From the NCBI RefSeq assembly GCF_902859645.1, contig NZ_CADIJR010000042.1, forward strand, positions 1-59,117: 59,117 bases of DNA. The letters run 5' to 3'. Position 1 is the first letter of the stretch. Each line of letters begins with the position of its first letter. Positions 10,799 through 33,726 of the stretch are shown one piece after another. The stretch comes from Achromobacter insuavis. GTDB taxonomy: Bacteria; Pseudomonadota; Gammaproteobacteria; Burkholderiales; Burkholderiaceae_B. A program made the position numbers and the translations under genes. The notes beneath the pieces were generated by a model, which saw only the letters and a program-made list of their open reading frames with translations, searched no databases and was not told the DNA's origin.

Positions 10799-12040
10799 AT
10801 GCGTCGAATCGCGATCGTCGGAGGAGGGCAGGCCGGCCTGCCGTTGGCACTGGGCCTGCTGGACAAGGGCTACGAGGTGACCGTGGTCACCAACCGCGAG
10901 CCCGATGACATCCGCCGCGGCAAGGTCATGTCCAGCCAGTGCATGTTCGATGCCTCGCTGCAGATCGAGCGCGACCTGGGCCTGAACCAGTGGGAAGCCG
11001 ACTGTCCGCCGGTCGAAGGCATCGGCCTGGCCGTGCCGCATCCCGAGCGCCCCGGCCACAAGCTGATCGACTGGGCCGCGCGCCTGGACCGTCCGGCGCA
11101 GGCGGTGGACCAGCGCATCAAGATGCCGGCCTGGATGGAATTGTTCGCCGCCCGCGGCGGCCGCCTGCTGATCCAGGATGGCGGCGTGGCCGAACTGGAG
11201 CTGCTGGCCGCCTCGCACGACCTGGTGCTGCTGGCCGCCGGCAAGGGCGACGTGGTCAAGCTGTTCGAGCGCGACACCGCGCGCTCGCGCTTCGACAAGC
11301 CGCAGCGCGCGCTGGCCCTGACCTACGTGCACGGCATGCGCCCGGCGCCGGTGTTCTCGCGGGTCGCCTTCAACCTGATCCCCGGCGTCGGCGAGTACTT
11401 CGTGTTCCCCGCGCTCACCACCACCGGCCCCTGCGAAATCATGGTGTTCGAAGGCGTGCCGGGCGGCCCGATGGACTGCTGGCGCGATATCAAGACGCCG
11501 CAGGACCACCTGGCCAAGAGCCTGGACATCCTGCGCACCTTCCTGCCCTGGGAGGCCGAGCGCTGCGCGTCGGTCGAGCTGACCGATGCCAACGGCATCC
11601 TGGCCGGCAGCTTCGCGCCCACGGTGCGCAAGCCGGTCATGACGTTGCCGTCGGGCCGCCTGGTGTTCGGCCTGGGCGACGCCGTGGTCACCAACGACCC
11701 CATCACCGGCCAGGGCTCGAACAACGCCACCAAGGCCTGCGCCGTCTATCTGGAGGCGATCCTGGCGCGCGGCGACCAGGCTTTCACGGCCGAGTGGATG
11801 CAGCAGACCTTCGAGCGCTTCTGGGACTACGCCAGCGCCGTGGTCGACTGGACCAACTCGATGCTGCTGCCGCCGCCGCCGCATCTGCTGCACCTGCTGC
11901 AGGCCGCCGGCGACGCGCCCGCCCTGGCCAGCGCCGTCGCCAACGGCTTCAACCATCCGCCCAACTTCTTCCCGTGGTGGACCGACGCCACCGCCTGCGA
12001 GGCCTTCATCGCCGCCAAATCCACCCGGGCGGCGGCGTGA
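10799..12040 (+). CDS. Styrene monooxygenase-like FAD-dependent oxygenase subunit (StyA family)
   Basis: A 413-residue single-component flavoprotein oxygenase, equal in length to StyA. The FAD dinucleotide fold VGGGQAGLPLALGL is at about residues 7-20. The segments LDRPAQAVDQRI, FDKPQRALALTY and GDAVVTNDPITGQGSNNATKA match the order of StyA's conserved blocks, with GD near residue 295 contacting FAD. In the family, reduced FAD delivered by a partner reductase is converted to the C4a-hydroperoxide, which epoxidises styrene, indole or related alkenes. The substrate here is unknown because the substrate-pocket residues differ from the classical Pseudomonas enzyme as I recall it. A GGAG lies just upstream of the ATG, and the stop overlaps the next start by one base. 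Confidence 0.85.
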   Translation: MRRIAIVGGGQAGLPLALGLLDKGYEVTVVTNREPDDIRRGKVMSSQCMFDASLQIERDLGLNQWEADCPPVEGIGLAVPHPERPGHKLIDWAARLDRPAQAVDQRIKMPAWMELFAARGGRLLIQDGGVAELELLAASHDLVLLAAGKGDVVKLFERDTARSRFDKPQRALALTYVHGMRPAPVFSRVAFNLIPGVGEYFVFPALTTTGPCEIMVFEGVPGGPMDCWRDIKTPQDHLAKSLDILRTFLPWEAERCASVELTDANGILAGSFAPTVRKPVMTLPSGRLVFGLGDAVVTNDPITGQGSNNATKACAVYLEAILARGDQAFTAEWMQQTFERFWDYASAVVDWTNSMLLPPPPHLLHLLQAAGDAPALASAVANGFNHPPNFFPWWTDATACEAFIAAKSTRAAA

Positions 12041-12543
12041 TGGCGGCCCTGGACTGGGGCAGCACCGACCTGCACCCCAAGGTCCTGCGCGGCGTGCTGG
12101 GCAGCTACCCGACCGGCGTGGCCATCGTCGCCACGCGCTGTCCGGACGGCCGCAAGGTCGGGCTGACCATCAACTCCTTCGCCTCGCTGTCGCTCGATCC
12201 GCCGCTGGTGCTGTGGAGCCTGGTGAACCGCTCGCCCAACCTGGCGGCGTTCCGCGACTGCGACCACTTCACCATCAGCGTGCTGGCCTGCGGCCAGGAG
12301 GCGCTGGCGCGGCGTTTCGCCGATCCGGCGGTGCCGGACAAGTTCGAAGGCGCCGAGCTGCACGAGGTGCCCGAGGGCGTGCCTGCCATCGCCGGCGCCG
12401 TGGCCACGCTGGTCTGCGCCAACGACCAGCAGAGCCCGGCCGGCGACCACCTGCTGCTGTTCGGCCGGGTGCTGCGCGTGGCCAGCCTGGAGGCCACGCC
12501 GCTGGTGTTCCATGCGGGGCGCTTCACGGCGCTGACCCTATGA
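12040..12543 (+). CDS. Flavin reductase, StyB-like partner of the oxygenase
   Basis: A 167-residue flavin reductase-like domain protein. The segments VLRGVLGSYPTGVAIVATRC, GLTINSFASLSLDPPLVLWSL and FTISVLACGQEALARRFA are the standard conserved blocks of NAD(P)H:flavin oxidoreductases that feed two-component monooxygenases. It should reduce FAD with NADH for the oxygenase encoded upstream. Translation is coupled: its ATG shares the A of the upstream TGA (TGATG), and its own TGA is overlapped by the next gene's ATG. The length and pairing match StyB. Confidence 0.88.
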   Translation: MAALDWGSTDLHPKVLRGVLGSYPTGVAIVATRCPDGRKVGLTINSFASLSLDPPLVLWSLVNRSPNLAAFRDCDHFTISVLACGQEALARRFADPAVPDKFEGAELHEVPEGVPAIAGAVATLVCANDQQSPAGDHLLLFGRVLRVASLEATPLVFHAGRFTALTL

Positions 12544-19992: not shown

Positions 19993-20892
19993 ATGGAACT
20001 GCGCCACCTTCGCTATTTCTTGACCATCGTCGAACTCGACAATCTGTCGCGCGCGGCCGAGAAGCTGTGCGTTGCGCAATCCACGCTGTCGCACGCCCTG
20101 CGTCAACTTGAAGAAGAATTGGGCATCGCGTTGTTTGACCGGGTAGGGCGGACCATGCGCCTCACTCAGGCCGGTCGGGTGTTCCGCGACTATGCGGCGC
20201 GAACATGCAATGAAGCGACGCGGGCCAAGCGGGCGATGCAGGAGTTGAACGAGCTCGACGCGGGTACCTTCACCTTGGGCGCCATCCCGGTATTTCCCCT
20301 GGCATTTCTGCCGCGCACGGTCTCGGCCTTCAACCAGCGACACCCGAAAGTGCGGATCGTGGTCCAGGATCTGCTCGCGGCGCAGCTCGAGGAAAAACTG
20401 GCGCTGGGTATGCTCGATCTTGGCATCGCCTTTCATCCGGCCTCACGCGACGACGTCGAATCCGAACCTCTTTTTTCTGAGCGGCTGGTCCTGGCGGTGG
20501 GCCGCGAGCACCCGTTCGCACGGAAGCGTCGGGTTCAGTGGAGAACGCTCGATTCGATTCCGCTAGCCCTGTTCCCGCCGAAATTCTCGACGCGCATCCT
20601 GATCGAAGACGCGTTCAAGGCCGCCAATGTGCAATTGCAGGTAGCGGTGGAAATGGATAGCACGGAGTCGCTCCTGGCGGTCGCCGCGGAAGGGCAGCTT
20701 GCGACCATCGTCCCTGAAACGGCGGCGACGGGCTTCGAGCGCGTCAATCTCATCCCTATCACGCAGCCGGAATTGTCCCGGCAACTCGGCTTGCTGTGGC
20801 CGAAGGGAGCAGGGCGGACTCGCGCCGCGACGACTTTCGCCGGGATGCTCAAGGAAATGTCCATGGCCGTGAGAAAGGGCCAGAAAGCGTGA
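19993..20892 (+). CDS. LysR family transcriptional regulator (CynR-like)
   Basis: A 299-residue LysR protein. The N-terminal winged helix is MELRHLRYFLTIVELDNLSRAAEKLCVAQSTLSHALRQLEEELG, and an effector-binding domain follows from about residue 90 (TFTLGAIPVFPLAFLP). The gene is divergent from ridA, with 218 bases between the starts containing CGAT-rich dyads around 19925-19960 that could be its operator. The last 24 codons (TTFAGMLKEMSMAVRKGQKA) and the stop are repeated at 24804-24875. A decayed toxin fragment on the opposite strand begins at its stop codon, so the 3' end is a recombination junction. Confidence 0.88.
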   Translation: MELRHLRYFLTIVELDNLSRAAEKLCVAQSTLSHALRQLEEELGIALFDRVGRTMRLTQAGRVFRDYAARTCNEATRAKRAMQELNELDAGTFTLGAIPVFPLAFLPRTVSAFNQRHPKVRIVVQDLLAAQLEEKLALGMLDLGIAFHPASRDDVESEPLFSERLVLAVGREHPFARKRRVQWRTLDSIPLALFPPKFSTRILIEDAFKAANVQLQVAVEMDSTESLLAVAAEGQLATIVPETAATGFERVNLIPITQPELSRQLGLLWPKGAGRTRAATTFAGMLKEMSMAVRKGQKA

Positions 20893-20931: not shown

Positions 20932-21045
20932 ATCGGTGGCGGATGCAAGCAGACCGCTTGAGCGAATCGTTTTACTATCGCCGTTGACAATTCCCGGCCG
21001 CGCTGTGTGAATGGCGCCGCGCCCAATCCTACGCACGCTTACCGA

Positions 21046-24000
21046 ATGACCATGACGCCCTCACGGAAAGAACAGCGCCCGTCCGCGCGGCGCATTCTCG
21101 CGGATGTTGCTCCCCTCAGCCATGATCAACGCTACAAACGCATGGTGGCGCTCGGTCGTGAATCCCTCACGAGTGCGCCTCTGGCTGAAGACCTGCGGTC
21201 ATTGGCGCAATCGGAGGTCCACTACGAGCGGCTGTTGGCGTTGATGTCGGTCAGTGGCTCCCATGCGACGGATCTGATCGTCACGATGCTCGCCGATCCG
21301 TCGCCCATGCTGGCATTGCGTGCCGCCCGGCTGGCGGCGCGTGTCGTGCCCGACGAGCTGCTGGTCCGGTTGATGCCGGACATGACGAAGGCGTGCCGCC
21401 GGGATCTTTCCAGCCAGCTCTGGCGAGCCGGGCGCGGACAGGTGAACGATGCCGTCTACCCGACACTTGACGGTGCGGCGCGCCGCCATCTTCTGCCGTG
21501 GACGACCGATGCGTTCATCCGCGGCAATCTGGACGCGGAGCTGCTGGCCGCGCTCGAGGCGCCGCAGTGGGCGGCATTGGCGCAGCGCTTGCCGGGATTC
21601 GTGCGCGACCAGCTGGTGCAGGCGCTGGAGACGTCCGGCAATCCTTCCTACGTGTTGCGGCTTGCCGTCCGAGCTTCGCTCTATCGCATGTTGCGCAGCG
21701 ACCGGGCGGCTGGGTTGAGCCTGTTGCGCGTGGCGGTTACCCGACTCCCGGTGAGTGATCTTCCCCTGACGCGCTATGCCTCCTTCTTCCCGAAGGAAAT
21801 CGGCGCCATTGTCGAAGGCCTGGGAAGCAGGCAGCGCATTCCCTTCACGCCGCGAGCCTTGCGGCGCCTGGACGCGCCCGCGCTGTGCAGGCTGTTGTCG
21901 GTCGACGCGCTGCCCAATTTGCAGGCGGTCTTCCCGCAGCTGCGCGCAAGCCAGCGGGACGCGCTTTACCGCCATGGCGGCGAAGCCTGGCGCCGGGACA
22001 GCGGGGCCTTGCCGTTTGAGTTCGTGCGGGAGCTGTCCAGCGCCGCCCGGCAGGCCGAAGCGCGCCATGCGTTTTCGCTGCGGCTGCTGGCTGCCGAGCC
22101 GATGATCCGCTTGCCGTATCTATCCTGCCTGCCGTTTCAGGAAGCGCTGGCCCTGGCCCAGCCTTTCCTGTCGCAGCCTGATGGCGAATTGCGCGCGCAG
22201 GCCGTGGCGGCGGTGGTGGGGGCAGGGAGATACGAGGCATCCAGCTTGTCCGCCATCCTGGACTTCTGCCGGGCCCGTGAAAACGAGCAAGACCCGGTGC
22301 GGCTTGCCATGCTGACCGCCCTGGCGGCGCTGCCGCCTTCGCGTTGGGAAACCCGGCATCTGCCCGGGTTCTCCGCGCTGATCGATGCCGCGCTGCGTGC
22401 CAGGGACTGCTCGCACCAGACCATGCTGGCGGCCACGCAATGGTTGATGGCCATCATCGCCACCCATGCCGCTTTCGTCGTCGAGACGCTGCCTCGCCTG
22501 GTCGAGCGCATGGGCAGCATGGGAAATCTCCGCTACGGGTATTGGGAATCCCGTATGAGCGACAACGAATTGCTTGAGATCGCCCCGCATCTGATGGGGT
22601 TGCTCCAGACATGGATCCGGCGCGATCGCGGCCAGATTGCGCTGCAACTGGTCTTGGGCTTCGGATGTCGCGCCAAAGCCGTGGATCTGTTCGTCGACAT
22701 GCTGGCCGGCCTGACCCGGGACAAGCGTGGCCATGTGGCGCGTTCGGGGCTGGAGACGCTGGTGAGGCTCGGACTCAGCAAACGGGTCGCCGAGTTGGTC
22801 CCCCAATTGGTGGGAGACGATCCGAGCTGGATCCAGGTTTCGGCGGTTTCCTCGCATCTGCATGTGCGCAGGCAGGACCTGCTGACGCCGTTCCTGAGCG
22901 CCCGCGTCTACAAGGGGCGGTTTCCGAGCGGCAAGGCGGCGTTTCTTCCCGCCTATGACAGCGGCTTCTCCCGGTGGACGGCCGCCCAGCAACAATGCTA
23001 TGCCGGCGAACTGCTCGATATCCTCACGAGCCCGCAACGCAACGCCTGGGAACTCTACGGTTGCGTCCAGCGATACGCGGCCATGCCGTCCATCGATCTG
23101 GCGCCGCTCTTCGACTTCGCGCGGCTGGACGCGCCTGACCAGGGACTGCGTGACAAGACGCTGGAAGTGCTCGGGCGCGCCGATGCGGGACGCGGCGTGG
23201 CAGCGCTGATGCAGGCATTGGATGACGGCCGGGCCCGCATCGCCATCTATGCCTTGCGTCGATCCCTGATGAACCTGCCCCCCGCGCGGGTCTTGGACCT
23301 GCTCGACCGCGTGCCGCGCGGCAAGATCACCGTGGCCAAGGAGATCATTCGGCTCGCTGGCGATCTGAGGACGGACGGCGCCTTCGCATTCCTGACCCGG
23401 ATCGAAGCTGAACCCAGGCTGCATCCGGATGTGGTGATCGCCTTGATGCGGGCGTACTGGAACTTCCTTGATCGCCCTGAGGTCTGGCAGCGATTGCACG
23501 CCGCCGCCCGCAACGAGCAGCCTGCGCTCGCGCGCGCAACCATCCGTATTCCGCCGGTGGGTCTTGCCCCGGACGGCCAGCGCGCATTGAGCAGGCATCT
23601 TGCATTGCTGCTTGGACATCCCGACGCGCAAATCCGCAAGGAAACCCTGGAAAGACTGATCGCGATGCCGCCGGGGGAAGGCGAGCCGACGCTGTACCAA
23701 GCGCTGGCCGCGCGGCTCGATGACGTCGATGTCGCGCTGGTTGAACTGGCGGCGCGCGCGCTGCTGGGTATCTATGCGGGCAGCTTGCCGCGGGAGCTGG
23801 CAGGCGGTTTCGCCGGCTTGACGCGGGCGCAGTCATTGGCTGCCGTTGTCGATGCGTATCTGTGGCAGTTGCACCGTGGCCAGCTGGAACTGGCCGCGTC
23901 GGCGAACCTGCTGGTCGAGGCCCTGCTGGCCAGGCGCTGGCATCCGGGGCTGGCGCTGCGGCTCGCATTCTCGGTATTGAGTCCGGAGGCCGCGTTGACG

Positions 24001-24306
24001 ACCGCGCGGCAATTCGATTCTTCGGAATTGCTGCATCCCGGCGTCGTCGGGGATGTCCTGGATTCGCTTGCAGAGACGGCGGCTGGTGCGCGCCCGGATC
24101 AACTCATCCAGGTCGAAGCATTGCTGGGGGCCGAGGGCAATGCCCGCATGCGGCGGATCGGCCTGGGCTTGCTGCGCGAAATGTCGACCCGGATTGGCTG
24201 GACGGAAGACATGCGCCAGCGGCTGGGGGTCTATCGGAATGACAAGGATGGCTGGGTTTCCGACGCGGCCGACCTGATTACGTATCCGGATGAGGTTTCC
24301 GAATGA
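21046..24306 (+). CDS. Large alpha-helical-repeat (HEAT-like) protein of unknown function
   Basis: A 1,086-residue protein made almost wholly of leucine-, alanine- and arginine-rich amphipathic helices. Recurring helix pairs have the look of HEAT/armadillo repeats, for example LLALMSVSGSHATDLIVTML, GLETLVRLGLSKRVAELVPQL, LRDKTLEVLGRADAGRGVAAL and IRKETLERLIAMPPGEGEPTL. There is no signal peptide, membrane segment, nucleotide-binding loop or catalytic motif that I can see, so a cytoplasmic scaffold or binding role is likely. The start is uncertain: ATG 21046, ATG 21052 or GTG 21007, none with a clear Shine-Dalgarno. The stop overlaps the next ATG (ATGA), implying joint translation. The pair lies between two copies of the lysR 3' end. 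I do not recognise a named family. Confidence 0.75.
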   Translation: MTMTPSRKEQRPSARRILADVAPLSHDQRYKRMVALGRESLTSAPLAEDLRSLAQSEVHYERLLALMSVSGSHATDLIVTMLADPSPMLALRAARLAARVVPDELLVRLMPDMTKACRRDLSSQLWRAGRGQVNDAVYPTLDGAARRHLLPWTTDAFIRGNLDAELLAALEAPQWAALAQRLPGFVRDQLVQALETSGNPSYVLRLAVRASLYRMLRSDRAAGLSLLRVAVTRLPVSDLPLTRYASFFPKEIGAIVEGLGSRQRIPFTPRALRRLDAPALCRLLSVDALPNLQAVFPQLRASQRDALYRHGGEAWRRDSGALPFEFVRELSSAARQAEARHAFSLRLLAAEPMIRLPYLSCLPFQEALALAQPFLSQPDGELRAQAVAAVVGAGRYEASSLSAILDFCRARENEQDPVRLAMLTALAALPPSRWETRHLPGFSALIDAALRARDCSHQTMLAATQWLMAIIATHAAFVVETLPRLVERMGSMGNLRYGYWESRMSDNELLEIAPHLMGLLQTWIRRDRGQIALQLVLGFGCRAKAVDLFVDMLAGLTRDKRGHVARSGLETLVRLGLSKRVAELVPQLVGDDPSWIQVSAVSSHLHVRRQDLLTPFLSARVYKGRFPSGKAAFLPAYDSGFSRWTAAQQQCYAGELLDILTSPQRNAWELYGCVQRYAAMPSIDLAPLFDFARLDAPDQGLRDKTLEVLGRADAGRGVAALMQALDDGRARIAIYALRRSLMNLPPARVLDLLDRVPRGKITVAKEIIRLAGDLRTDGAFAFLTRIEAEPRLHPDVVIALMRAYWNFLDRPEVWQRLHAAARNEQPALARATIRIPPVGLAPDGQRALSRHLALLLGHPDAQIRKETLERLIAMPPGEGEPTLYQALAARLDDVDVALVELAARALLGIYAGSLPRELAGGFAGLTRAQSLAAVVDAYLWQLHRGQLELAASANLLVEALLARRWHPGLALRLAFSVLSPEAALTTARQFDSSELLHPGVVGDVLDSLAETAAGARPDQLIQVEALLGAEGNARMRRIGLGLLREMSTRIGWTEDMRQRLGVYRNDKDGWVSDAADLITYPDEVSE

Positions 24307-24812
24307 AGCGATTCCTCGTCGCCCATGATTACGGCATGGGATCCCTGTGGTGGTGGATAGAGGCGCCTTCGGAAGCGGCGATCGTCCAGACCTATGCCGA
24401 AGTTGTGGTTGTCGACCAGACCGAGGTGGATCCGGGGAGGTTTACGGACATTCCGTCGATTCGCATCGGCGATCCCGCTCCCGCGGGCCTTGACGACCTG
24501 CAAGCGCAGCGCCGCCTCCAGCGCGCCAATCCGAAATTCGGCGCGCTGGTCGGGCGAGGCAACGTCTACATCAAGCAGGAATTTCCTGAAGATCAGGAGA
24601 CCTATTTCGTCGAGTACGACGAAAAGGGGTATCGCACGCGCCAGGTCGTTGTGTCGGCCAGTGGCGACGCGGAAAGCACGGGTCCCGAGGATTGGTGTTT
24701 CAATCCGCCGGAAGACTTGTGGGACCCGGAACTTGCCGAGCGTGAAACCACGCGGGAGGCGTTCGAGTCTTGGTGGGCACGCGCTCGCGCGGCTGGGCGT
24801 CTTGCGCCGTGA
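24303..24812 (+). CDS. 169-residue WWW-motif protein coupled to the HEAT-like gene
   Basis: A small soluble acidic protein. The N-terminus MKRFLVAHDYGMGSLWWWIE is striking: three consecutive tryptophans after a DYGMG turn. A beta-strand-rich middle (VYIKQEFPEDQETYFVEYDE, RTRQVVVSASG) and a helical, Trp-containing C-terminus (REAFESWWARARAAGRLAP) follow. There is no signal sequence or transmembrane helix. Its start overlaps the stop of the HEAT-like gene, so the two products are likely made in proportion and may interact. I cannot assign a function. It ends inside direct repeat copy B, whose sequence supplies its stop codon. Confidence 0.75.
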   Translation: MKRFLVAHDYGMGSLWWWIEAPSEAAIVQTYAEVVVVDQTEVDPGRFTDIPSIRIGDPAPAGLDDLQAQRRLQRANPKFGALVGRGNVYIKQEFPEDQETYFVEYDEKGYRTRQVVVSASGDAESTGPEDWCFNPPEDLWDPELAERETTREAFESWWARARAAGRLAP

Positions 24813-24914: not shown

Positions 24915-26480
24915 CTAGAACCGCCTCTCCAGCATCAGGCTGACCTCGGTCCGGTCCCGCGCATACATGGGCAGATTGCTGGTGATCTTGAGGTAACTGA
25001 GGTTCAGCTTCGGCTCCAACCCGGCGATCTTGAAGTCCGGCGTCCAGACCGAGGCGTCCACGCGCAGCTCATGATCGCGCCGCCGCTGGTTCAGGAACAG
25101 GGCATAGGGCGCCTCATACGCCTGTCTGCCATAGCGGGCGCTCAAGCGCGTGCCCAACATTTGCCCGAAGGTCTTGACCACGCCCAGCTGCGCCCAGGGA
25201 AAGCGATAGGTGTATTCGCCCGCCGCCACCGCCTCGCGCTGCAGCCCGACGCTGGCGTAAGCCAACAGCGCGGGCGAGAACACGCGGATCGCCGTCAGCG
25301 ACAGCACGTCCAGATGGCCGTCATAGGCGGCATAGGCCCGGTCGTCATAGCCGCGCTTGAGCCACAGCCAGGCCCCCATCAACTGCCACCCCGGCGTTGG
25401 CCGCCACCCGTACTCCAGGCTCAAGCCGCGGTTGTGGCTATAGCGCCGGCTGCCCATCCAGCTGCGGCCCGCCTGGGGCGTCGCGGCAAACCAGCGCGTG
25501 GCATCCTGCCACTTGTAGCCGCCGCGCAAGGTCAGGGAGCGGTCGCTGTAGTCGCGTTGCACGCGATACGCGGTGCCGTCGATATCCGCGCCCAGCGTGT
25601 AGTAGTGATGCCCGCCGAGATTGCGTTCGACATTGGCGCTGCCACTGTATTTCAACCCCCAATCCGCCTTGGGCAACGCGTCGCGGCCCTTCGCGAACGG
25701 CACCCACAAGGGACCTTGCCGTGTCGCGACCGGCAGGTACAGCATCGGGTCGCGGTTGGCCGAATTGACGTTGTTGCTGTAGACCGTGCCCGCGCCCAGA
25801 CGGAAATTCCAGCGGCGCTGCTGCGCCAATGCCTGACGGTAAAGCATGACGCTGCGCTGCGCCGCCGGCTCCAGCGACCCCAGCCGCAGGTCGGCCAGCT
25901 CGGCGTCGGACTGCGCGAATTGGCGATCCTCCATCAGCATGGTGGCCAGTTCCAGCCGCACGTAGCCCAGGTCGGGATGCTGCGCCACCAGCCGGCGGTA
26001 CAACGCGATGGCCTCGGCCAGCCGCCCGTCGTGGCGCAGCAGCGCGCCATGCACGTAGTCGCGCAGGATCGGATCGACGCCGGCCATCCAGGGGTAGAAG
26101 CGCATCACCCGGCGCAGGGTGCTCCAGTCCTCTTGCAGCATCGCCTGGTTGAGGATGCGTTCGGTCAGCCTGAGGTCGTGGGCCAGGTCCTGGTCGGTCA
26201 GTTCGACGGGCGGCTGGGCCGGTTGGGTGGGCGGGCGGTGCGTGATGGCGGGCGTGGGGCGAGGGGGAGGGGGGAGCGTCGGGGTGTCCGGCTCCAGGGG
26301 GCGGACGGGAGCCGGCAGGACGGCGGGTGACGGCGTGGCGGGTTGGGCCTGGAGCGTAAGCGAATAGCTCGTGACCAGCAGGCTGATGACGATTGCGGTG
26401 AACAGTGAATGACGGCGAGAGGGGTCGGACGAGAGAGGGTGCGGCACGGGCCTCCCGGATGCGGCGGCTTGAATAGGCAA
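24915..26480 (-). CDS. Surface lipoprotein assembly modifier (Slam) family outer-membrane translocon
   Basis: Up to 521 residues. After a signal-like N-terminus (LFTAIVISLLVTSYSLTLQAQP) and a proline-rich linker there is a TPR-type helical domain (about 95-245, with LRRVMRFYPWMAGVDPILRDY and GRLAEAIALYRRLVAQHPDLG). A 14-strand-like barrel (about 250-521) ends DRTEVSLMLERRF. This is the Slam architecture: TPR plus DUF560 barrel. Slam proteins move TbpB-like substrates across the outer membrane. The start is unusual: TTG at 26480 or GTG at 26447, since no ATG precedes the signal peptide. The substrate gene lies directly upstream (26616-27500), separated by a terminator-like hairpin. Confidence 0.88.
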   Translation of the reverse strand: MPIQAAASGRPVPHPLSSDPSRRHSLFTAIVISLLVTSYSLTLQAQPATPSPAVLPAPVRPLEPDTPTLPPPPRPTPAITHRPPTQPAQPPVELTDQDLAHDLRLTERILNQAMLQEDWSTLRRVMRFYPWMAGVDPILRDYVHGALLRHDGRLAEAIALYRRLVAQHPDLGYVRLELATMLMEDRQFAQSDAELADLRLGSLEPAAQRSVMLYRQALAQQRRWNFRLGAGTVYSNNVNSANRDPMLYLPVATRQGPLWVPFAKGRDALPKADWGLKYSGSANVERNLGGHHYYTLGADIDGTAYRVQRDYSDRSLTLRGGYKWQDATRWFAATPQAGRSWMGSRRYSHNRGLSLEYGWRPTPGWQLMGAWLWLKRGYDDRAYAAYDGHLDVLSLTAIRVFSPALLAYASVGLQREAVAAGEYTYRFPWAQLGVVKTFGQMLGTRLSARYGRQAYEAPYALFLNQRRRDHELRVDASVWTPDFKIAGLEPKLNLSYLKITSNLPMYARDRTEVSLMLERRF

Positions 26481-26482
26481 AA

Positions 26483-26508
26483 GGACTGCAGGGGAATCCC
26501 TGCAGTCC
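26483..26508 (-). terminator. Intercistronic hairpin before the Slam gene
   Basis: A perfect 11-bp stem (GGACTGCAGGG with CCCTGCAGTCC), 4-base loop, followed on the minus strand by CTTTTG. It sits 108 bases after the secreted-protein stop and touches the putative TTG start of the Slam gene. It could be a partial terminator that lowers translocon expression relative to its cargo, or could mask the start site. Confidence 0.65.
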
Positions 26509-26615
26509 GTGATGGGAGCGATCGCAATTCAGCAACGGCGGTATCAAATAGAAGTGCGACTGAAGTGATATCTATTCAATATTGAAACGTCGCCTGTTGG
26601 ATCTTTCCGTGATGG

Positions 26616-27500
26616 TTACTGTTTTGCGCCGATGACAGCGACGGAGCCGATGCGCTCCGGCAGCCCTTCGATGGAGCCGGCAATCTCGGCACCCTGCGGG
26701 CCGAAGAGAGTCAGGCTGTAGGTTGGGTTGCTCGTCGGACCTTTGATGGCGTTCCATGCCGCAGGATTACTGACGTCAGCATTGGTGATGGTGACATCGC
26801 CATCGAATACCAGGCCGTTGCTGGTAGTGGCCAGCGCGGTGGGGTCCAACTTGCCGTTGGTGATATCGAAGAAGATGTCCATGCCAGTCGATGACTGCGA
26901 TGCCGGAATCTTGAGTTCGTTCAATGAGAACGACCCTTGACCCGTAGCAGTACTCGGTCCGGTTACTGCCACCTGATAGTCGAACATGCCGCGCGGGAAG
27001 TTGCTGAAAGTCACGCCGGCATAGCTGTAGGTACCATTTACAAGCGTGCCAGGCATGGTCTGTTCTCCGACGACGCTCTTTACGAAGTGGCGCGCTTCAG
27101 TGCCTCGCGAGAGATTGACCACCGCTGCCGAGTAGTTCTGGCGATAGACGCGGTAGACAACGGGCGCCCGGGCCGACGCCGAGCCATCGTTGGAAGTCAG
27201 GCTCAAGTCATCGTTGTGGCCCTGGCCACCCTTGCCGTTCTTGCCATACAGCGTGAAAGGCTGCAAATCCTTCAGGTCGAACAGGTCGGCGACGCTGGTG
27301 CCGGCCTGGCCCGGTACCGTTACGGCGGTCGATGGGCCGTAGGTCTGGCCGTTGTAGTTGAACGATCCGAGATAGGACACTTCCGGATCCTGATTACTGG
27401 GTTCGTTGAGGTCCAGTTGATTCCAACCGGCAAAGGCGGTGCTGGCAAAACCCAACGCCAGCAACGCGCTGGAGAGGTGGCTGAGCGTGCGCATAGACAT
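26616..27500 (-). CDS. Secreted Slam-dependent protein, hemophilin (HphA)/TbpB-barrel-like
   Basis: A 294-residue exported protein. The signal peptide is RTLSHLSSALLALGFASTAFAG with signal peptidase I cleavage after AFA and no lipobox cysteine, so the mature protein is soluble. The N-terminal part is a beta-rich handle domain (WNQLDLNEPSNQDPEVSYLG). The last ~100 residues (DGDVTITNAD, YSLTLFGPQGAEIAGSIEG, VAVIGAKQ) have the pattern of the TbpB-type eight-strand barrel (FYGP...E.GG...FGAK) used by Slam substrates. AAGGA lies 8 bases before the ATG. Together with the downstream Slam and the upstream TonB receptor this matches the hemophilin arrangement, in which a secreted heme-binding protein feeds a receptor. 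Heme binding is inference. Confidence 0.8.
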   Translation of the reverse strand: MSMRTLSHLSSALLALGFASTAFAGWNQLDLNEPSNQDPEVSYLGSFNYNGQTYGPSTAVTVPGQAGTSVADLFDLKDLQPFTLYGKNGKGGQGHNDDLSLTSNDGSASARAPVVYRVYRQNYSAAVVNLSRGTEARHFVKSVVGEQTMPGTLVNGTYSYAGVTFSNFPRGMFDYQVAVTGPSTATGQGSFSLNELKIPASQSSTGMDIFFDITNGKLDPTALATTSNGLVFDGDVTITNADVSNPAAWNAIKGPTSNPTYSLTLFGPQGAEIAGSIEGLPERIGSVAVIGAKQ

Positions 27501-27528
27501 GATGACGTTCCTTGATAGAAAGGGTGAA

Positions 27529-27566
27529 CAAGCCTCGCGGGAAAAATTGATCGGTTCAGAGGCTTG
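27529..27566. repeat. 8-bp inverted repeat in the leader of the hemophilin-like gene
   Basis: CAAGCCTC at 27529-27536 pairs with GAGGCTTG at 27559-27566 across a 22-base A/T-richer loop. It ends 29 bases before the start codon of the secreted protein on the minus strand. It may be an operator or mRNA structure. Confidence 0.4.
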
Positions 27567-27754
27567 ATGCCAAGTCCGGCGAGATTGACCCGCCGGGTGT
27601 CCGTGTGCGATTGGTTTCGGACGGTGGCAATGAAGAAGACACGCTGCCCACCCCTAAAGGGCAAAGCGAAACGGCATAGCCGCACCGGTATCGCCGAAGA
27701 TCGGACGCACTCCTGGTCGAGAGTGGCTCCCTGCGGGGTTTGCCCGTTGAACCG

Positions 27755-30520
27755 TCACAGGCGATAACCCAGCGTCAAAAGCGCATTGCGCGGCGCGCCC
27801 GAAATGAAGGATCTTTCGTGTTGGTAGTAGACCTTGTCGAACAGGTTATTGATGTTCAACTGCATGCTGAAGCGCTTGTCAATCTGGTAGCGCGCCATCA
27901 GATCGACCACATAGTAGGGGTTCTGATGCATCAGATAGTCTTGGCTCCGGGCAGTGATGTTCACGGGAATCCACGTGGACTGTGTGCGGCTCTGCCAGCG
28001 AACGCCCGCGCCCACCGTGAGCCGCTTGATGCGGTAGGTCGTAAATAGCTTGAGGGATTTTTCGGGTGCGCGATAACTATTGGTGTAATCGTCGCGGGCT
28101 GCGAGCAGCACTTCACCTGCCTTCAGGGGAGGCGGGATCTGCTTTTGTTTTACATAGCCCGCCGACACGTTCCAGTTAGGCGTGATGGCGCCCGTAACAT
28201 TGAATTCCCAGCCATAGACTCTCCAGCCGTCGTTATCGGTGCCAGAAGCCGCAGGGTCATTGGTCTGGTGAGGAAAGTCCTTCTGTCGCATTCTGAAGTA
28301 CGACGCAGCCACATTGAGCCTATCGTCGAAGAACGCGCCTTTGACGCCTCCCTCCTCGGTGATCGAACGCACCGGGGGAAGATAATCGCCGGTCATAATG
28401 TTGGTTCCGCCATTTTCATCCGGATAGCGGATATAGGACGTGGCATAGCTGCCATAGGCATTGATCTGAGGCGTTAACTCGACGATCAAGCCTGCGTACG
28501 GCAGGAATTTCGGACGCATTGTGGGATTGCTTTTGTTGGGCAGGAAGGTCCAGCCTGGCCCGCAATTTCCTTCGAGGCAGTCGGTCTCGACATGGTCTGC
28601 TTCCGTATCCTTGGCCCAGCGGCCACCCATGATCAGATGCACGCGATCAATCGGGCGCAGGTGGCTGGAAAAATAATATCCAGTCTGCCGTGCTTTCGTC
28701 GTGTAGCGCTCGCGGGCGGTGTACATGTCCTGTCCCAAATCCTCCCAGGTCTCGGGAGGGCGGTTGGTCCAATCCGCGATAGGGGCGGCATTGGTAGGAA
28801 AAAGAGCACGACAGCCGCGACGGGGATTGCACCTATCAAATGAAAGGGTGGAAGAATCGGATGTGCCAGTGCTGGCGTATCCGCCATAGACCATGTGGTG
28901 CAGGTTGTAGGCATTGGCCCCGAAGACAAACTCTTGCCGTCTTCCCAGTAGCTCGATACTGCCTTTCAAATGCACGTCAATGGCATTGATGATGTTCTCT
29001 TGATTGTCGCGTTTCGCAACGTAGCTGGCGACTCCTGCCTGGGGTAGGTAAAAGCGGGTGCCCATTTCCCCATAGAGTTTGTCGTCCGTGTTGCTGGCAT
29101 AGTTGTAGCTTGCCTTGAGAGACCAGTCATCGTTGAAATCATGGTCCCAGGTCAGGAAGAGATTGGTGTAGTTGCGATGCGTATGCGACCAAGGCGTGGC
29201 GTTGTTGAAGCTGCGTGGGATGCCCGTGGTGGGAAACACGGTGACGCCTTTTGGCACATCGCGCAGGCCTTCCGGCAGATCTTTCGGTACCCGGCTGTTA
29301 AACACTTCCGAAAACCGCGCCAAGCCATGCGGCGAGGCGCCATCGAGTTTGAAATCGAATTGCGTTACTCCCGCGGTGATTCGATTGTTTTCGGTCACAT
29401 CCAGCTGGCCGATCAGCGATACCGCGCTTCGGTCACTCTTGACCCGTTCGACCCAGTGATTGCCTTTTTGTGCGGCGGCCGCGATTCGCACGCGCAACCT
29501 GTCATTGATCGGCGTGGAGAGGTCCAGCTCGGCGCGGCGATTGTTCCAGCTGCCGTATTTCAGGTTCGCCGACAGGTGACGATCCAGATAGGGATGTTTG
29601 CGCACGAAGTTCAGACTGGCCGAAGCGTCGCCTTCGCCGCCGGTCAGGCTGGTGGAGCCACGAATCACGTCGATACGTTCATATAGAAAGGAATCCTGCA
29701 TGCCGATGTCGCCATTCGACGAGCCGGACAGGATATAGCTGCTGGCCATGACTCCGTCCATCTGCACCGATCTGACAGGAAAGGTGCGCGAGTAGACCGG
29801 TTGGCTGCCAGCGCCTTCAACGCCAGCGGTCACCAACGTGATGCCTGGAGTCTGGTCAAGCACCTCGCTCAGCGTCAACAACCCCTGATCCTGAATCTGC
29901 TGCGCCGTGAACGTGGTGATGCTCTGCGGCGTTTCCTTCGGCGCCAGGTCTAGCTTGGTGGCGCTGGACGTGCTGCTGACGGTGTAGCCCCGGTTGGGCG
30001 CGTCGCCTTCGCGGTAGCCGCTGACGGTGACGGCGTTCAGCTGGGTCACATCGGTGGCGTCCGAGCCTGCCGCCTTCGGCAAGCCGCGCAGCATGTAGCG
30101 CCCCGGCGCACGCGCCACCGCTTCGAATCCGCTGCCTTGCAGGATGCGGCGGAAACCCGCCTCCACCTCAAAACTTCCCCGCAACCCGGCGGATTCCTTT
30201 CCCGCGAGCAGCGAGGCGTCGAACGACAGGCTGACGTCGACCGCCTGCGCGTACTGGTTCAGCACCGTGGTCAGCGGACCGGCCGGGATGTCGACCTGCA
30301 AGGTGCTGGCGGTGAGGCCTGCCGACGGCGTTTGCGCCTGGGTGGCGCGCAGCGGCGTGAAGGCGGCCAACAGGCATATGAGCGTGAGATTCAGCGTGAA
30401 CTGGCGCGCGCCCGGCGCGGCATGGTGCGAGGAACGGCCAGGCGCGCAGGCCGGCGAAGCGGAGGAGTGATCGTGCATGGACATATCGCGGCAGAGTGAT
30501 TGAACGGGAAGCGAGGCCAT
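27755..30520 (-). CDS. TonB-dependent receptor with STN signalling domain (FecA/FpvA type)
   Basis: Up to 921 residues. A long leader (signal region QFTLNLTLICLLAAFTPLRATQAQ) is followed by an STN domain (about 72-125, LQVDIPAGPLTTVLNQYAQAVDVSLSFDASLLAGKES), a TonB box-like TQLNAVTVSGY near 156, the plug (KETPQSITTFTAQQIQDQG and LSEVLDQTPGI) and a 22-strand barrel ending in LLTLGYRL. The STN domain passes a ligand signal to FecR in the inner membrane. The plug resembles siderophore receptors rather than classical heme receptors. Starts at 30520 or 30484 (MSMHDH) are both possible. It lies between fecR and the hemophilin-like gene on one strand. Confidence 0.9.
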   Translation of the reverse strand: MASLPVQSLCRDMSMHDHSSASPACAPGRSSHHAAPGARQFTLNLTLICLLAAFTPLRATQAQTPSAGLTASTLQVDIPAGPLTTVLNQYAQAVDVSLSFDASLLAGKESAGLRGSFEVEAGFRRILQGSGFEAVARAPGRYMLRGLPKAAGSDATDVTQLNAVTVSGYREGDAPNRGYTVSSTSSATKLDLAPKETPQSITTFTAQQIQDQGLLTLSEVLDQTPGITLVTAGVEGAGSQPVYSRTFPVRSVQMDGVMASSYILSGSSNGDIGMQDSFLYERIDVIRGSTSLTGGEGDASASLNFVRKHPYLDRHLSANLKYGSWNNRRAELDLSTPINDRLRVRIAAAAQKGNHWVERVKSDRSAVSLIGQLDVTENNRITAGVTQFDFKLDGASPHGLARFSEVFNSRVPKDLPEGLRDVPKGVTVFPTTGIPRSFNNATPWSHTHRNYTNLFLTWDHDFNDDWSLKASYNYASNTDDKLYGEMGTRFYLPQAGVASYVAKRDNQENIINAIDVHLKGSIELLGRRQEFVFGANAYNLHHMVYGGYASTGTSDSSTLSFDRCNPRRGCRALFPTNAAPIADWTNRPPETWEDLGQDMYTARERYTTKARQTGYYFSSHLRPIDRVHLIMGGRWAKDTEADHVETDCLEGNCGPGWTFLPNKSNPTMRPKFLPYAGLIVELTPQINAYGSYATSYIRYPDENGGTNIMTGDYLPPVRSITEEGGVKGAFFDDRLNVAASYFRMRQKDFPHQTNDPAASGTDNDGWRVYGWEFNVTGAITPNWNVSAGYVKQKQIPPPLKAGEVLLAARDDYTNSYRAPEKSLKLFTTYRIKRLTVGAGVRWQSRTQSTWIPVNITARSQDYLMHQNPYYVVDLMARYQIDKRFSMQLNINNLFDKVYYQHERSFISGAPRNALLTLGYRL

Positions 30521-30684
30521 GGCCGGAACCGGTTCGGTTCGCGTCCATGGCGAGCGCCATCGTCATTGAGGACACGCGACGTGCTACGAAAGTGCAAATG
30601 CGATTGAAAAAAATACTTATGTGATCTTTTTGCGCTTGACCCGTGGCGTCAGGCACGAGGCCGCCTCCTGCGCCACCGCCCCGG

Positions 30685-31680
30685 CTACGCTCCTGGGCGC
30701 GCCAGCACCGTCACCCAGTAGCGCGTATGCCGCCGCACCTGCACAGGGAAACTGTCCGAGATTGCTTCCAGCGCCTCGTCGGTGTCCCGCAATGAGAAGA
30801 CCCCGGAGACCTTCAGATCGGCCACCGCCGGATCGCACCGCAGGATGCCGGGCCGATAACGCGCCAGTTCGGCGACGACCTCGGCCAGTGGCCGATCCTC
30901 CACCACCAGGCGGCCGTGCAGCCAAGCCTGCGCATCCACGGACGCGGCGCCCACCGGCCCCGCGCCGTTGGCATCGAACGACACCGCCTGACCGGCGCGC
31001 AGCAGCACCGCAGGGATGCGGATCGACGGGTGATCCTGCGTCTGGCCGGGCAGGATGGTGGCCGACTGTTGCAACACCTGCACCCGCGTGTCGCGGGTAT
31101 CCAGCCGCACCGTGAAGCGGGCCTCCTGCGGCAGGATGTCGCCATGCGGCGTGCTGACGACGAAAGGGCGCGGCATGGCCCGCGAGGTCTGGTCCTGATG
31201 GACCTGCATCAGGATCTCGCCGGCACGCAGCACCACCCGACGCCGCGCATCGCTGAAATCCAGCGTCACGCGGGTGGCGGTGTTCAGATAGAGCTGCGAG
31301 CCGTCGTCCAGTTGGAATTGGCGCAGCTCGCCGGTCGCGGTCTGCCAGGTGCCCGGCTCCCCTGACCGCATGACGCCATAGGCGCCGGTGGCCAGCAGGC
31401 CCATCCCCATCAACGACAGCAGGCTGCGGCGCTGTGCGCGCCGGCGCGCGGACGGGGTGAGCACGGCCGTGGCGACATTGGCCGGCACGCGGCTGAAGGC
31501 GCACCGCATCTTCTGCAGCCGTTCCCAGGCCTGGCGATGCGTGGGGCTGGCGTCGAGCCAGGCCTGCCAGTCAACGCGATCGCGCGGCGTCGCGTCCTCT
31601 GCCATGAGGCAGGCAAACCAGCGGGCGGCTTCGTGTACGGCCGATTCCTCGGCGGACGACGGCGGGCGGGACTCGGCCAT
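30685..31680 (-). CDS. FecR family anti-sigma factor/sensor
   Basis: A 331-residue inner-membrane regulator. The cytoplasmic N-terminal anti-sigma region has the WQAWLDASPTHRQAWERLQ motif (about 40-58). One transmembrane segment follows near residues 88-104 (LLSLMGMGLLATGAYGVM), then the periplasmic FecR domain (TATGELRQFQLDDGSQLYLNTATRVTLDFS) and a C-terminal STN-interacting region (DRPLAEVVAELARYRPG). It receives the signal from the STN domain of the receptor encoded downstream and controls the FecI-type sigma factor encoded 17 bases upstream. Confidence 0.92.
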   Translation of the reverse strand: MAESRPPSSAEESAVHEAARWFACLMAEDATPRDRVDWQAWLDASPTHRQAWERLQKMRCAFSRVPANVATAVLTPSARRRAQRRSLLSLMGMGLLATGAYGVMRSGEPGTWQTATGELRQFQLDDGSQLYLNTATRVTLDFSDARRRVVLRAGEILMQVHQDQTSRAMPRPFVVSTPHGDILPQEARFTVRLDTRDTRVQVLQQSATILPGQTQDHPSIRIPAVLLRAGQAVSFDANGAGPVGAASVDAQAWLHGRLVVEDRPLAEVVAELARYRPGILRCDPAVADLKVSGVFSLRDTDEALEAISDSFPVQVRRHTRYWVTVLARPGA

Positions 31681-31696
31681 GCAAACTGCCCGGGGA

Positions 31697-32218
31697 TCAG
31701 AAGGCCGCCAGGCAGCAGTGCGCCATGGCGCGCGCGATGTAGTTCTTCACCGTGCGCAGCGAGACATTCAAGTTCAAGGCGATCTGCGTGTAGGGCAACC
31801 CCTGGAACTGCGACAGCACCAGTGCCTGCCGCACCTTCGGGTCGAGGCCGTCGAGCATGCGATCGAACTCGAACAACGCCTCGCGCACCAGCGCCTGGGT
31901 TTCGAGGGAAGGCACGTGCTGCGGCGGCAGGGTGGCCAGGACTTCGAGATAGGCGATTTCCAGCGCCTGCCGCCGGTAGAAATTGGCCACCAGCCGTCCG
32001 GCCACGGTAGCCAGATAGGCGCGCGGTTCGCGCAGGGGGGAGGTGTCGATATGGAGGGGAGTGGCGGCGCACAGCACGCGGACGAAAGTGTCCTGGGTCA
32101 GATCGTCGGCGTCTTCGGCGCGGCGGACTTTAGTGCGAAGCCAGTTGCGCAGCCAACCGTGATGCTCGCGGTATAGGCCACCGACCTGGTGGGCGGTGGG
32201 GGCGAGGCACTTTTTCAT
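31697..32218 (-). CDS. FecI-type ECF RNA polymerase sigma factor
   Basis: A 173-residue extracytoplasmic-function sigma factor. Region 2 contains LYREHHGWLRNWLRTKVRRAEDADDLTQDTFVRVL, and region 4 contains LSQFQGLPYTQIALNLNVSLRTVKNYIARAM, the promoter -35 binding helix-turn-helix. It should direct transcription of the receptor, secreted protein and Slam genes when released by FecR, probably under iron limitation. No clear Fur box was found upstream, but the upstream region carries a strong G-quadruplex-forming tract. Confidence 0.93.
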   Translation of the reverse strand: MKKCLAPTAHQVGGLYREHHGWLRNWLRTKVRRAEDADDLTQDTFVRVLCAATPLHIDTSPLREPRAYLATVAGRLVANFYRRQALEIAYLEVLATLPPQHVPSLETQALVREALFEFDRMLDGLDPKVRQALVLSQFQGLPYTQIALNLNVSLRTVKNYIARAMAHCCLAAF

Positions 32219-32484: not shown

Positions 32485-33726
32485 ATGATGAGACCGGTGA
32501 GAATTTTGACTCAGTCTGGCACGGTGGCAAACGTGATCATTCAGCAGCTCCAGACATGTCAACGAGCCTGGATAGCCGTGGCTTGGGCTACGGAGAATGA
32601 AGTTTTTTATGAGTTGCTAAAACAAGAGAGAAAACTTGAGGTCGTAGTAATTGGCACGCACGGGTCTCTTACCGCGCCAAGCTGTATAGAGCGGTTGGCG
32701 ACATGCAATTGGGTCTCATTTCGTAGCGCGAAGGGTCCGCTCTTTCATCCGAAGCTTTACCTGTTCGAGCATGGTGACCGATACACGGCGATCGTGGGCA
32801 GTCATAACATGACGCGAGGAGCTTTTCAAAACAATATAGAGCTCAGTACCGCCTCTGAGTTCGAAAAAAACGATCCTACCGTCCTGGCTCTCCGCCAGTT
32901 TGTCGAACAGTCAGCGAAAGGGCCGTGCATCACCCCTACGGCCGCATTCATCAGTCACTATCGAGCGAGCCATCGCGCTGCGCAAAGTCAGCGGAAAACA
33001 ATCGACGAACTCTATCAAGCCGAACCAGACCGCATGGAAGAAAAGGTGCGAACTGATGCGCCTATTCATATGGAATGGGATGATTGGCTGGCCAAGGTGA
33101 ATGCCGCACCGAATAATGGCTGTTCTCGCCGGCTCGATATGTTGGATCAAGTGCAGACGTTGCTGAGGCAACCCGGCGGATTCTTGAAGTTGTCCATTGA
33201 AGATCGAAAGCGAATTGCCGGTACGACTACAGCACGGCCTAAACAAGCTGACGACATAGACTGGCATTTTTTTGGGGCCATGACTTCTGCGCATCGTTTC
33301 GGTCATTCGTACGCCCACTTAATAGAAAAGGAAAATCCCATCGAAGTGGCGTCTGCGCTAGACCTCATTCCGGCTGAATTTCCTCCGACACGGGAGAACT
33401 GGTTGGAATATTGGGCAGCGCTGGAACGCGCCGCAGGAGATGAGGGGGGGATTGGCATCGTTGGAGCGACACGGTTGGCCTGCTTGAAGAGACCGGACTA
33501 TTTCGTGCCTATTTCGAGCACTAATGTCACGAGGCTGTCGGAGCAGCTTGGCGTGCCAAAGGAAGCGCTGAAGGATGCCAGGGATTACTGGGATACGGTG
33601 GTCGAGACGATACTGCTTACCCCATGGTGGAATGAGGAACGTCCCGCGGGTTTGGAACAAGCGAGGCTTTGGCGCGCTAGATCAGCGATGTTGGACGCCA
33701 TTGTGTACGCAGGAAACTCCGTGTAG
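32485..33726 (+). CDS. Phospholipase D-like domain protein
   Basis: 413 residues (412 if the second of two adjacent ATGs is used; AGAGAGG is better spaced for that one). The N-terminal ~150 residues form one PLD half with a HxK-containing motif: HPKLYLFEHGDRYTAIVGSHNMTRGAF (about residues 88-115) holds the His, Lys, Asn/Ser and acidic positions of the superfamily. Proteins with one such motif usually dimerise and include nucleases (NgoFVII/Nuc-like) and phospholipases. The C-terminal ~260 residues are not recognised. The gene and its flanks are clearly richer in A+T than the surroundings, suggesting horizontal acquisition. A defence nuclease is possible, but no partner is obvious. Confidence 0.75.
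   Translation: MMRPVRILTQSGTVANVIIQQLQTCQRAWIAVAWATENEVFYELLKQERKLEVVVIGTHGSLTAPSCIERLATCNWVSFRSAKGPLFHPKLYLFEHGDRYTAIVGSHNMTRGAFQNNIELSTASEFEKNDPTVLALRQFVEQSAKGPCITPTAAFISHYRASHRAAQSQRKTIDELYQAEPDRMEEKVRTDAPIHMEWDDWLAKVNAAPNNGCSRRLDMLDQVQTLLRQPGGFLKLSIEDRKRIAGTTTARPKQADDIDWHFFGAMTSAHRFGHSYAHLIEKENPIEVASALDLIPAEFPPTRENWLEYWAALERAAGDEGGIGIVGATRLACLKRPDYFVPISSTNVTRLSEQLGVPKEALKDARDYWDTVVETILLTPWWNEERPAGLEQARLWRARSAMLDAIVYAGNSV

Follow-up and report, generated by a model that had tools for sequence, protein, structure and literature searches.

Does a protein exported through a Slam translocon work as the partner of a signalling TonB-dependent receptor and, if so, what would the two capture? This question is raised by five genes, all on the minus strand, at positions 24915..32218 of a 59,117-nucleotide stretch of Achromobacter insuavis (GCF_902859645.1, contig NZ_CADIJR010000042.1, positions 1–59,117 of the forward strand), hereafter the window, from a genome of 6.82 Mb in 199 contigs. 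Our analyses favor, at a probability of roughly 0.7, the reading that the locus encodes a capture protein of the type XI secretion system (T11SS) and a siderophore-class receptor under their own signalling sigma factor, that is, a nutrient capture system with its own induction loop.

Four of the five products were clear from Pfam and NCBIfam and the fifth, the cargo, was recognized only weakly, giving the gene order FecI, FecR, TonB-dependent receptor with an STN domain, cargo and Slam. These are the five parts that a sequence-only reading of this DNA had named, and all were present. An extracytoplasmic function (ECF) sigma factor, a FecR-domain anti-sigma factor and an STN receptor stand side by side, as in FecI/FecR/STN surface signalling, and the Slam product has both the SlipAM barrel (PF04575, DUF560) and the N-terminal TPR domain (PF24575), each over its cut-off. 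The FecI product scored 183 bits with the NCBIfam FecI model, which is under the equivalog cut-off of 260.

Receptor and cargo diverge as one block

Comparison of the window with L022, another genome of the genus (L-numbers label the compared loci and stretches), revealed two levels of nucleotide identity. It was 98% in fecI, 97% in fecR, 97% in receptor codons 1–150 and 98% in the Slam gene, and inside a block with edges near 29880 and 26500 it was 85% for the plug, 72% for the barrel and likewise for the mature cargo, and 41% for the gap between receptor and cargo. The same division was found at four-fold degenerate sites, where the flanks differed by 3% (fecI), 6% (fecR), 7% (STN part), 3% (receptor codons 151–212) and 4% (Slam), and the block by 43% (receptor codons 213–921) and 51% (cargo). 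Diversifying selection alone was ruled out as the cause of the block because synonymous sites jump as well. Trees of the two parts also conflict, as that of the flanks unites the window, L020 and L022, with the opposite grouping rejected by the approximately unbiased (AU) test at p = 5.7e-6, whereas that of the block unites L022, L021 and L023 (opposite grouping rejected, p = 7.3e-5). These results would be explained best by recombination that moved the plug and barrel of the receptor together with the cargo. Since the plug, barrel and cargo diverge as one block, the comparison implies that receptor and cargo would behave as a matched pair, with the STN domain, FecI, FecR and Slam as generic parts.

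A putative promoter motif shared by the receptor and cargo genes

The motif TTGCMCTTT-N12-CGTGTC was read from six loci by aligning the gaps between FecR and receptor and between receptor and cargo, and consists of two blocks, 12 bases apart, that are common to both gaps; L007 likewise has the 12-base spacing at both sites. In the window, L007 and L020–L023, a scan allowing spacings of 10–15 bases matched 15 or 14 of the 15 motif positions before both genes, and the window had one more match, of 13 positions, at 20634. When the window was shuffled by block ten times, which preserves the base content of 60-base blocks and not dinucleotides, four matches of at least 13 and none of 14 were obtained. 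Across the 6.8-Mb genome there were two perfect matches, those before the receptor and cargo genes, and one further match with a single mismatch; the backwards pattern had none. When slightly widened, the motif occurred twice in each of the five cargo-bearing genomes among 43 of the genus and once in one of the 38 others, and the backwards control of this widened form gave four matches in four of the 43. The absence of the motif from L008, whose FecI is only 40% identical, also counts in favor of the loop.

Co-regulation of the cargo with the receptor is supported because of this shared motif, the joint absence of STN and an intact FecR in two relatives (below), and the divergence of the block. 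The sequence-only reading had proposed that the cargo is part of a ligand-sensing autoregulatory loop; co-regulation upholds part of that claim, and the sensing of the cargo itself is a proposal.

These findings also bear on an explanation in which the cargo and Slam form a secreted or surface factor that serves a different purpose, such as the binding of a host protein or a metal, and share no more than their regulation with an ordinary siderophore receptor. The receptor could indeed act alone like FauA, a host protein is the ligand of factor H-binding protein (fHbp), which the cargo resembles, the range of Slam cargos is diverse (PMC12282271), and the authors describing a comparable pair in Lysobacter interpreted it as a transferrin receptor (PMC11233812). 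Nevertheless, we consider this explanation improbable: the cargo owns a motif copy, the cargo and receptor barrel diverge jointly and Slam does not, and a receptor and a Slam gene stand beside the cargo in nine of nine loci compared, these loci having been chosen by their cargo.

The signalling parts in relatives

The cargo is narrowly distributed, being found in 5 of 43 genomes of the genus, 5 of 151 of the family (the A. insuavis genome included each time, so four others in the family) and 1 of 369 of the class, which is the genome itself. A cargo 99% identical occurs at an Achromobacter ruhlandii locus, and further cargo-bearing relatives are Paracandidimonas soli, Corticimicrobacter populi, an Alcaligenaceae bacterium and Allopusillimonas ginsengisoli, the contig scan behind these names having used two peptide patterns only and not being a full census. 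FecI, FecR, a receptor and Slam accompany the cargo in all eight relatives compared, and in seven the order is that of the window; in L008, FecI and FecR are found on the opposite strand, behind Slam.

L009 and L010 retain FecI, receptor, cargo and Slam, and their receptors are without STN. Next to an intact FecI, their FecR frames stop at 90 and 94 residues (11794–12066 and 12212–12496, respectively), which corresponds to the cytoplasmic part. Searches of both loci by tblastn found no STN remnant to E 1, and for the remainder of FecR only stray matches (E 0.2–0.86) outside the gap. In E. coli, the first ~85 residues of FecR can activate FecI constitutively, and if that behavior holds here the switch of L009 and L010 may be locked on.

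The retention of the cargo without STN in these two loci is also consistent with a loop in which the receptor by itself senses a free ligand and the cargo is an output and not the sensed signal. FecA- and FpvA-type receptors signal without any protein partner, and this possibility, to which we assign somewhat less than even chances, is compatible with the other steps of the reading that we favor. A contrary precedent is the Has system, in which the hemophore HasA forms part of the signal and the receptor, anti-sigma factor and sigma factor make up an induction loop (PMC11442138).

The cargo weakly resembles factor H-binding protein

The cargo has an apparent signal peptide ending AFA/GW (by eye). 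It has no cysteine and hence no lipobox; seven of the nine cargos are cysteine-free, the single cysteine of the L009 and L010 cargos is the first codon of the translated stretch, two codons before the ATG, and the lipobox of fHbp-type lipoproteins was found in none of them. The FHBP_C domain scored 28.0 bits in the window cargo, just under a cut-off of 28.1, and exceeded the cut-off in six of seven relatives; the NCBIfam model factorH_bind reached 15 bits relative to a cut-off of 200. Searching the PDB with a five-row profile of the cargo identified 11 distinct sequences to E 1, and all seven at E ≤ 0.01 were factor H-binding protein, the best match (E 1.9e-4) being the sum of two weak colinear stretches of which the better alone has E 1. 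As a control, three hemophilin-type cargos in the same search found six sequences to E 0.01 (four hemophilins, one haemophore and one transferrin-binding-like protein), which shows that a profile search of this kind can tell fHbp-like from hemophilin cargos.

The cargo had been read as hemophilin-like, and that assignment is not supported. Neither the window cargo nor seven relatives matched HphA_N or HphA_C, and a profile-profile comparison of the cargo family with hemophilin-type cargos, using very shallow alignments, found no similarity. A Foldseek search with the predicted fold of the C-terminal 145 residues (predicted local distance difference test, pLDDT, 56) returned 180 matches up to E 10, of which the best did not fall below E 0.4; two fHbp chains ranked second and third among unrelated proteins and are not counted as evidence.

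The receptor is nearest to siderophore receptors

Siderophore-receptor models gave the highest NCBIfam scores for the receptor: FauA was the top family at 302 bits, far under its equivalog cut-off of 900, followed by FhuE (261 bits) and TIGR01783 (213.6 bits in the window, 225.5 in L008, 201.9 in L009 and 198.6 in L021, with a cut-off of 223.5). The heme/hemoglobin receptor family TIGR01785 (TonB-hemin) reached 72.1 bits relative to a cut-off of 316.85. The first PDB matches were FpvA, FauA and FhuE. The sequence-only reading had likened the plug to siderophore receptors, and these scores bear this out and extend it to the barrel. Sequence boxes of heme receptors were dropped as a classifier, as one of eight heme- or other-class receptors (L103) had one box and nine cluster receptors had the other. 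Genome-wide, the FauA model matched 63 places (some receptors in two pieces), one of them, at C48, over the cut-off (1330 bits), so that the receptor repertoire of the strain is large.

A siderophore-class receptor suggests a ferric siderophore, the strain's own or foreign, as the ligand that the cargo would pass to a FauA/FhuE-class receptor, which would then signal. FauA was the top family in all four cluster receptors scanned (window, L008, L009 and L021), whereas TonB-hemin was the top family in all five scanned from other Slam loci, three over its cut-off (L061, 317.5 bits; L063, 322.9; L065, 363.8) and two under it (L072, 216; L074, 242). In addition, in vitro binding of siderophores from other bacteria has been reported for fHbp (Veggi 2012, cited in PMC5472700). 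However, the review citing that work sees no demonstrated physiological role for this binding and considers a link to iron questionable (PMC5472700), and the similarity of the cargo to fHbp is weak enough (whole match E 2e-4, best stretch E 1) that it may mirror no more than the barrel fold that Slam cargos share. We therefore hold the identity of this ligand as tentative.

Heme is a much less probable ligand, and we give little credence to the cargo being a hemophore for its receptor in the manner of HphA-HphR or HasA-HasR. The identical gene order does serve heme in the A. baumannii hemO cluster (PMC10483418), the family includes Slam loci in which FecI accompanies a heme-class receptor, and the cargos have conserved histidines near residue 138 (nine of nine) and near residue 95 (eight of nine). 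As the sequence-only reading had noted, the cluster itself has no heme oxygenase gene; the sole PF01126 match of the genome, which counts in favor of heme, is on another contig. Weighing against heme are the absence of HphA domains, the profile-profile result and the low heme-class score of the receptor (72 bits versus a cut-off of 317).

Other Slam loci

A survey of 268 genomes of the family listed 63 Slam places, nine of them of the window type. Stretches of up to 17 kilobases (kb) were fetched for 29 of the other 54, mostly the higher-scoring ones, and a match to FecI and/or FecR lay within the stretch at 10 of the 29. The cargos of L061 and L063 match HphA (Pfam), and that of L066 is 86% identical to that of L061; these three loci have FecI, no FecR was found in their fetched stretches, and the L063 receptor is also without STN. 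L064, L065, L067, L069 and L070 have FecR and an STN receptor ~3.5 kb upstream of the Slam gene, and in L070 these are separated from Slam by a PKD-domain protein of 843 residues that looks by eye like a lipoprotein. At class level, 45 Slam places were listed, one being that of the window, and 13 of the other 44 were fetched. Two of the 13 had no Slam match in a follow-up scan, and one, L103 (1057–9160, from a distant class member), has FecI, FecR, an STN receptor, two tandem cargo-like frames (by eye) and Slam in that order.

Comparison with known systems

The combination of parts at this locus had been thought undescribed, and this does not hold, as the gene layout is already in print for two bacteria. 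The A. baumannii hemO cluster consists of an ECF sigma factor, an anti-sigma factor, hphR, hphA, hsmA, a TonB-related gene and a heme oxygenase (PMC10483418), with its first five genes (sigma factor, anti-sigma factor, receptor, secreted cargo and Slam) in the identical order. It differs, on the basis of the descriptions, in having a hemophilin cargo, a heme oxygenase and a TonB-related gene, whereas the window has an fHbp-like cargo and a siderophore-class receptor, with neither of those two genes between fecI and Slam. The order is also identical in orf4990–orf4994 of Lysobacter sp. 3655, which encode a sigma factor, FecR, a TonB-dependent transporter, a Slam-dependent lipoprotein and Slam (PMC11233812). 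Transcripts there were higher at an optical density (OD) of 12 than at OD 1, by 13,005-fold for the cargo, 215-fold for the receptor and 11-fold for the sigma factor, and siderophore yield increased on deletion of the sigma factor, receptor or cargo gene, and not of that for FecR (PMC11233812). The Lysobacter cargo is described as a TbpB-like surface lipoprotein, which sets it apart from that of the window.

Other systems share only parts of the arrangement. HasA-HasR-HasS-HasI is likewise a loop of secreted capture protein, signalling receptor, anti-sigma factor and sigma factor, with the difference that HasA exits by type I secretion and carries heme (PMC11442138). FecA-FecR-FecI and FpvA-type systems have the identical signalling module, and among solved structures it is FpvA that the receptor matches best. 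We know of no secreted partner protein or Slam in these siderophore signalling systems. The resemblance to fHbp (GNA1870), which belongs to the Slam cargo class, lies in weak colinear similarity in two stretches and the FHBP_C domain, and to our knowledge no receptor gene stands beside fHbp. A further difference is that fHbp is a lipoprotein (PMC5472700), whereas the window cargo is without a lipobox.

As far as the available text of the Slam literature goes, TonB-dependent receptors occur in 120 of 185 Slam clusters with no FecR reported (PMC5449769), HphA, its Slam and HphR are described without FecI or FecR (PMC8560813), and a word search found no FecI, FecR or sigma factor in the main text of PMC8406197 and PMC12282271. 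In a limited search of partly available papers, we saw neither the layout treated as a cargo-sensing loop nor a Slam cargo paired with a siderophore-class receptor. The layout is thus known, and the window has it in a different form, with an fHbp-like soluble cargo, a siderophore-class receptor, a shared motif that is unique in the genome to these two sites at zero mismatches, and a receptor-cargo block that diverges as one.

Gene calls, hairpin and neighboring genes

Coordinates are given in Table 1. The open frame of Slam begins at TTG 26480 (frame 24915–26480), and the likely start is GTG 26447, which is three bases past GGGAGG and in line with the ATG of L007 (by eye). Between cargo and Slam, an 11-pair stem followed by TTTT (26508–26483) folds equally well in L021 and L023, where a G-C pair has changed to A-T on both sides of the stem; this hairpin would probably hold the level of Slam below that of the cargo. 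Beside the cluster, 32485–33726 encodes a PLD-like protein whose matches to ZacB and to models of type IV restriction are weak. At 21007–24812, a protein of 1099 residues is overlapped by four bases by a frame of 169 residues; no family was found, and the similarity of the larger protein to HEAT is faint (E 0.38).

Table 1. Features of the cluster and the evidence for each (positions in the window).
Feature	Position	Strand	Evidence
FecI-type ECF sigma factor	31697..32218	minus	NCBIfam FecI 3.6e-54; Sigma70_r2 and r4
FecR-type anti-sigma factor / signal transducer	30685..31680	minus	FecR 4.2e-16; DUF4880 2.2e-13; NF007296 7.4e-72
Putative FecI-dependent promoter motif before receptor gene, TTGCACTTT-N12-CGTGTC	30571..30597	minus	Kept in relatives; one of two exact genome matches
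TonB-dependent receptor, nearest siderophore class, with STN signalling domain	27755..30520	minus	STN 2.6e-7; Plug 5e-15; barrel 2.6e-37
STN domain, receptor residues 96–145	30086..30235	minus	PF07660 2.6e-7
Plug/barrel and cargo block divergent from L022 (approximate extent)	26500..29880		Identity profile; four-fold sites; conflicting trees
Putative FecI-dependent promoter motif before cargo gene, TTGCCCTTT-N12-CGTGTC	27638..27664	minus	Second of two exact genome matches
Non-lipidated cargo with fHbp-like C-terminal domain, presumably secreted	26616..27500	minus	FHBP_C 4e-6; PDB profile search; no cysteine
Terminator-like hairpin between cargo and Slam	26483..26508	minus	z -4.87; scan; paired change in relatives
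Slam / T11SS outer-membrane translocon	24915..26447	minus	SlipAM 3.4e-44; TPR_Slam 1.5e-24

Discussion

In the reading that we favor, the cargo, by analogy with its family, would be directed by its signal peptide out of the cytoplasm and be exported in soluble form by way of the Slam pore. Outside the cell it would bind an iron-bearing ligand and hand it to a receptor that fits it specifically, a pairing suggested by the block. The loaded receptor would then show its STN domain to FecR, which would release or activate FecI, as in the FecA/FecR/FecI and Has systems, and FecI could transcribe the receptor and cargo genes from the two near-identical promoters at which the motif was observed, with Slam presumably kept under the level of the cargo by the hairpin past the cargo gene.

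A number of our observations count against this reading. The groups compared in the AU tests were named only after the identity profile was known, and the motif was derived from the loci where it was first scored, leaving its rarity elsewhere as the independent part of that evidence. The motif is kept only before the receptor in L009 (14 of 15 positions) and L010 (13), and is absent from L008, in which the best two-block match in a search for a second motif was no better than shuffles. L009 and L010 are two species of one genus, so their joint absence of STN and intact FecR may be one event, and the parts are not always coupled, as FecI and STN occur in L061 and L066 with no FecR found in the stretches fetched. 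The predicted fold of the whole mature cargo had a pLDDT of only 39, and the Lysobacter pair, as mentioned, was taken by its authors for a transferrin receptor. Finally, no Fur box (19-base consensus) above background was found near fecI in the window: upstream scores were 13 of 19 in L009 and L010 only and 9–12 in the window and other stretches, relative to a background maximum of 12 reached by 29 of 400 random window stretches. The Fur comparison has little power, as the best values upstream of eight other receptors were 10–14.

Carried to its most specific form, our interpretation would make the fHbp-like cargo a “siderophilin”, a T11SS protein that catches ferric siderophores outside the cell, feeds a matched FauA/FhuE-class receptor and induces its own gene and that of the receptor via STN, FecR and FecI, with the barrel and cargo traded between species as a specificity block and the signalling parts and Slam remaining where they are. 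Taken with all of these parts together, we regard this proposal as unlikely, although if it were true it would provide a physiological setting for the reported binding of siderophores by fHbp. A Slam cargo paired with a siderophore-class receptor would add a ligand class to those of Slam systems, and would make cargo-dependent induction a testable question. In addition, the divergence of the block suggests which parts confer specificity and which are generic, and thereby offers a natural experiment for the matching of cargo and receptor.

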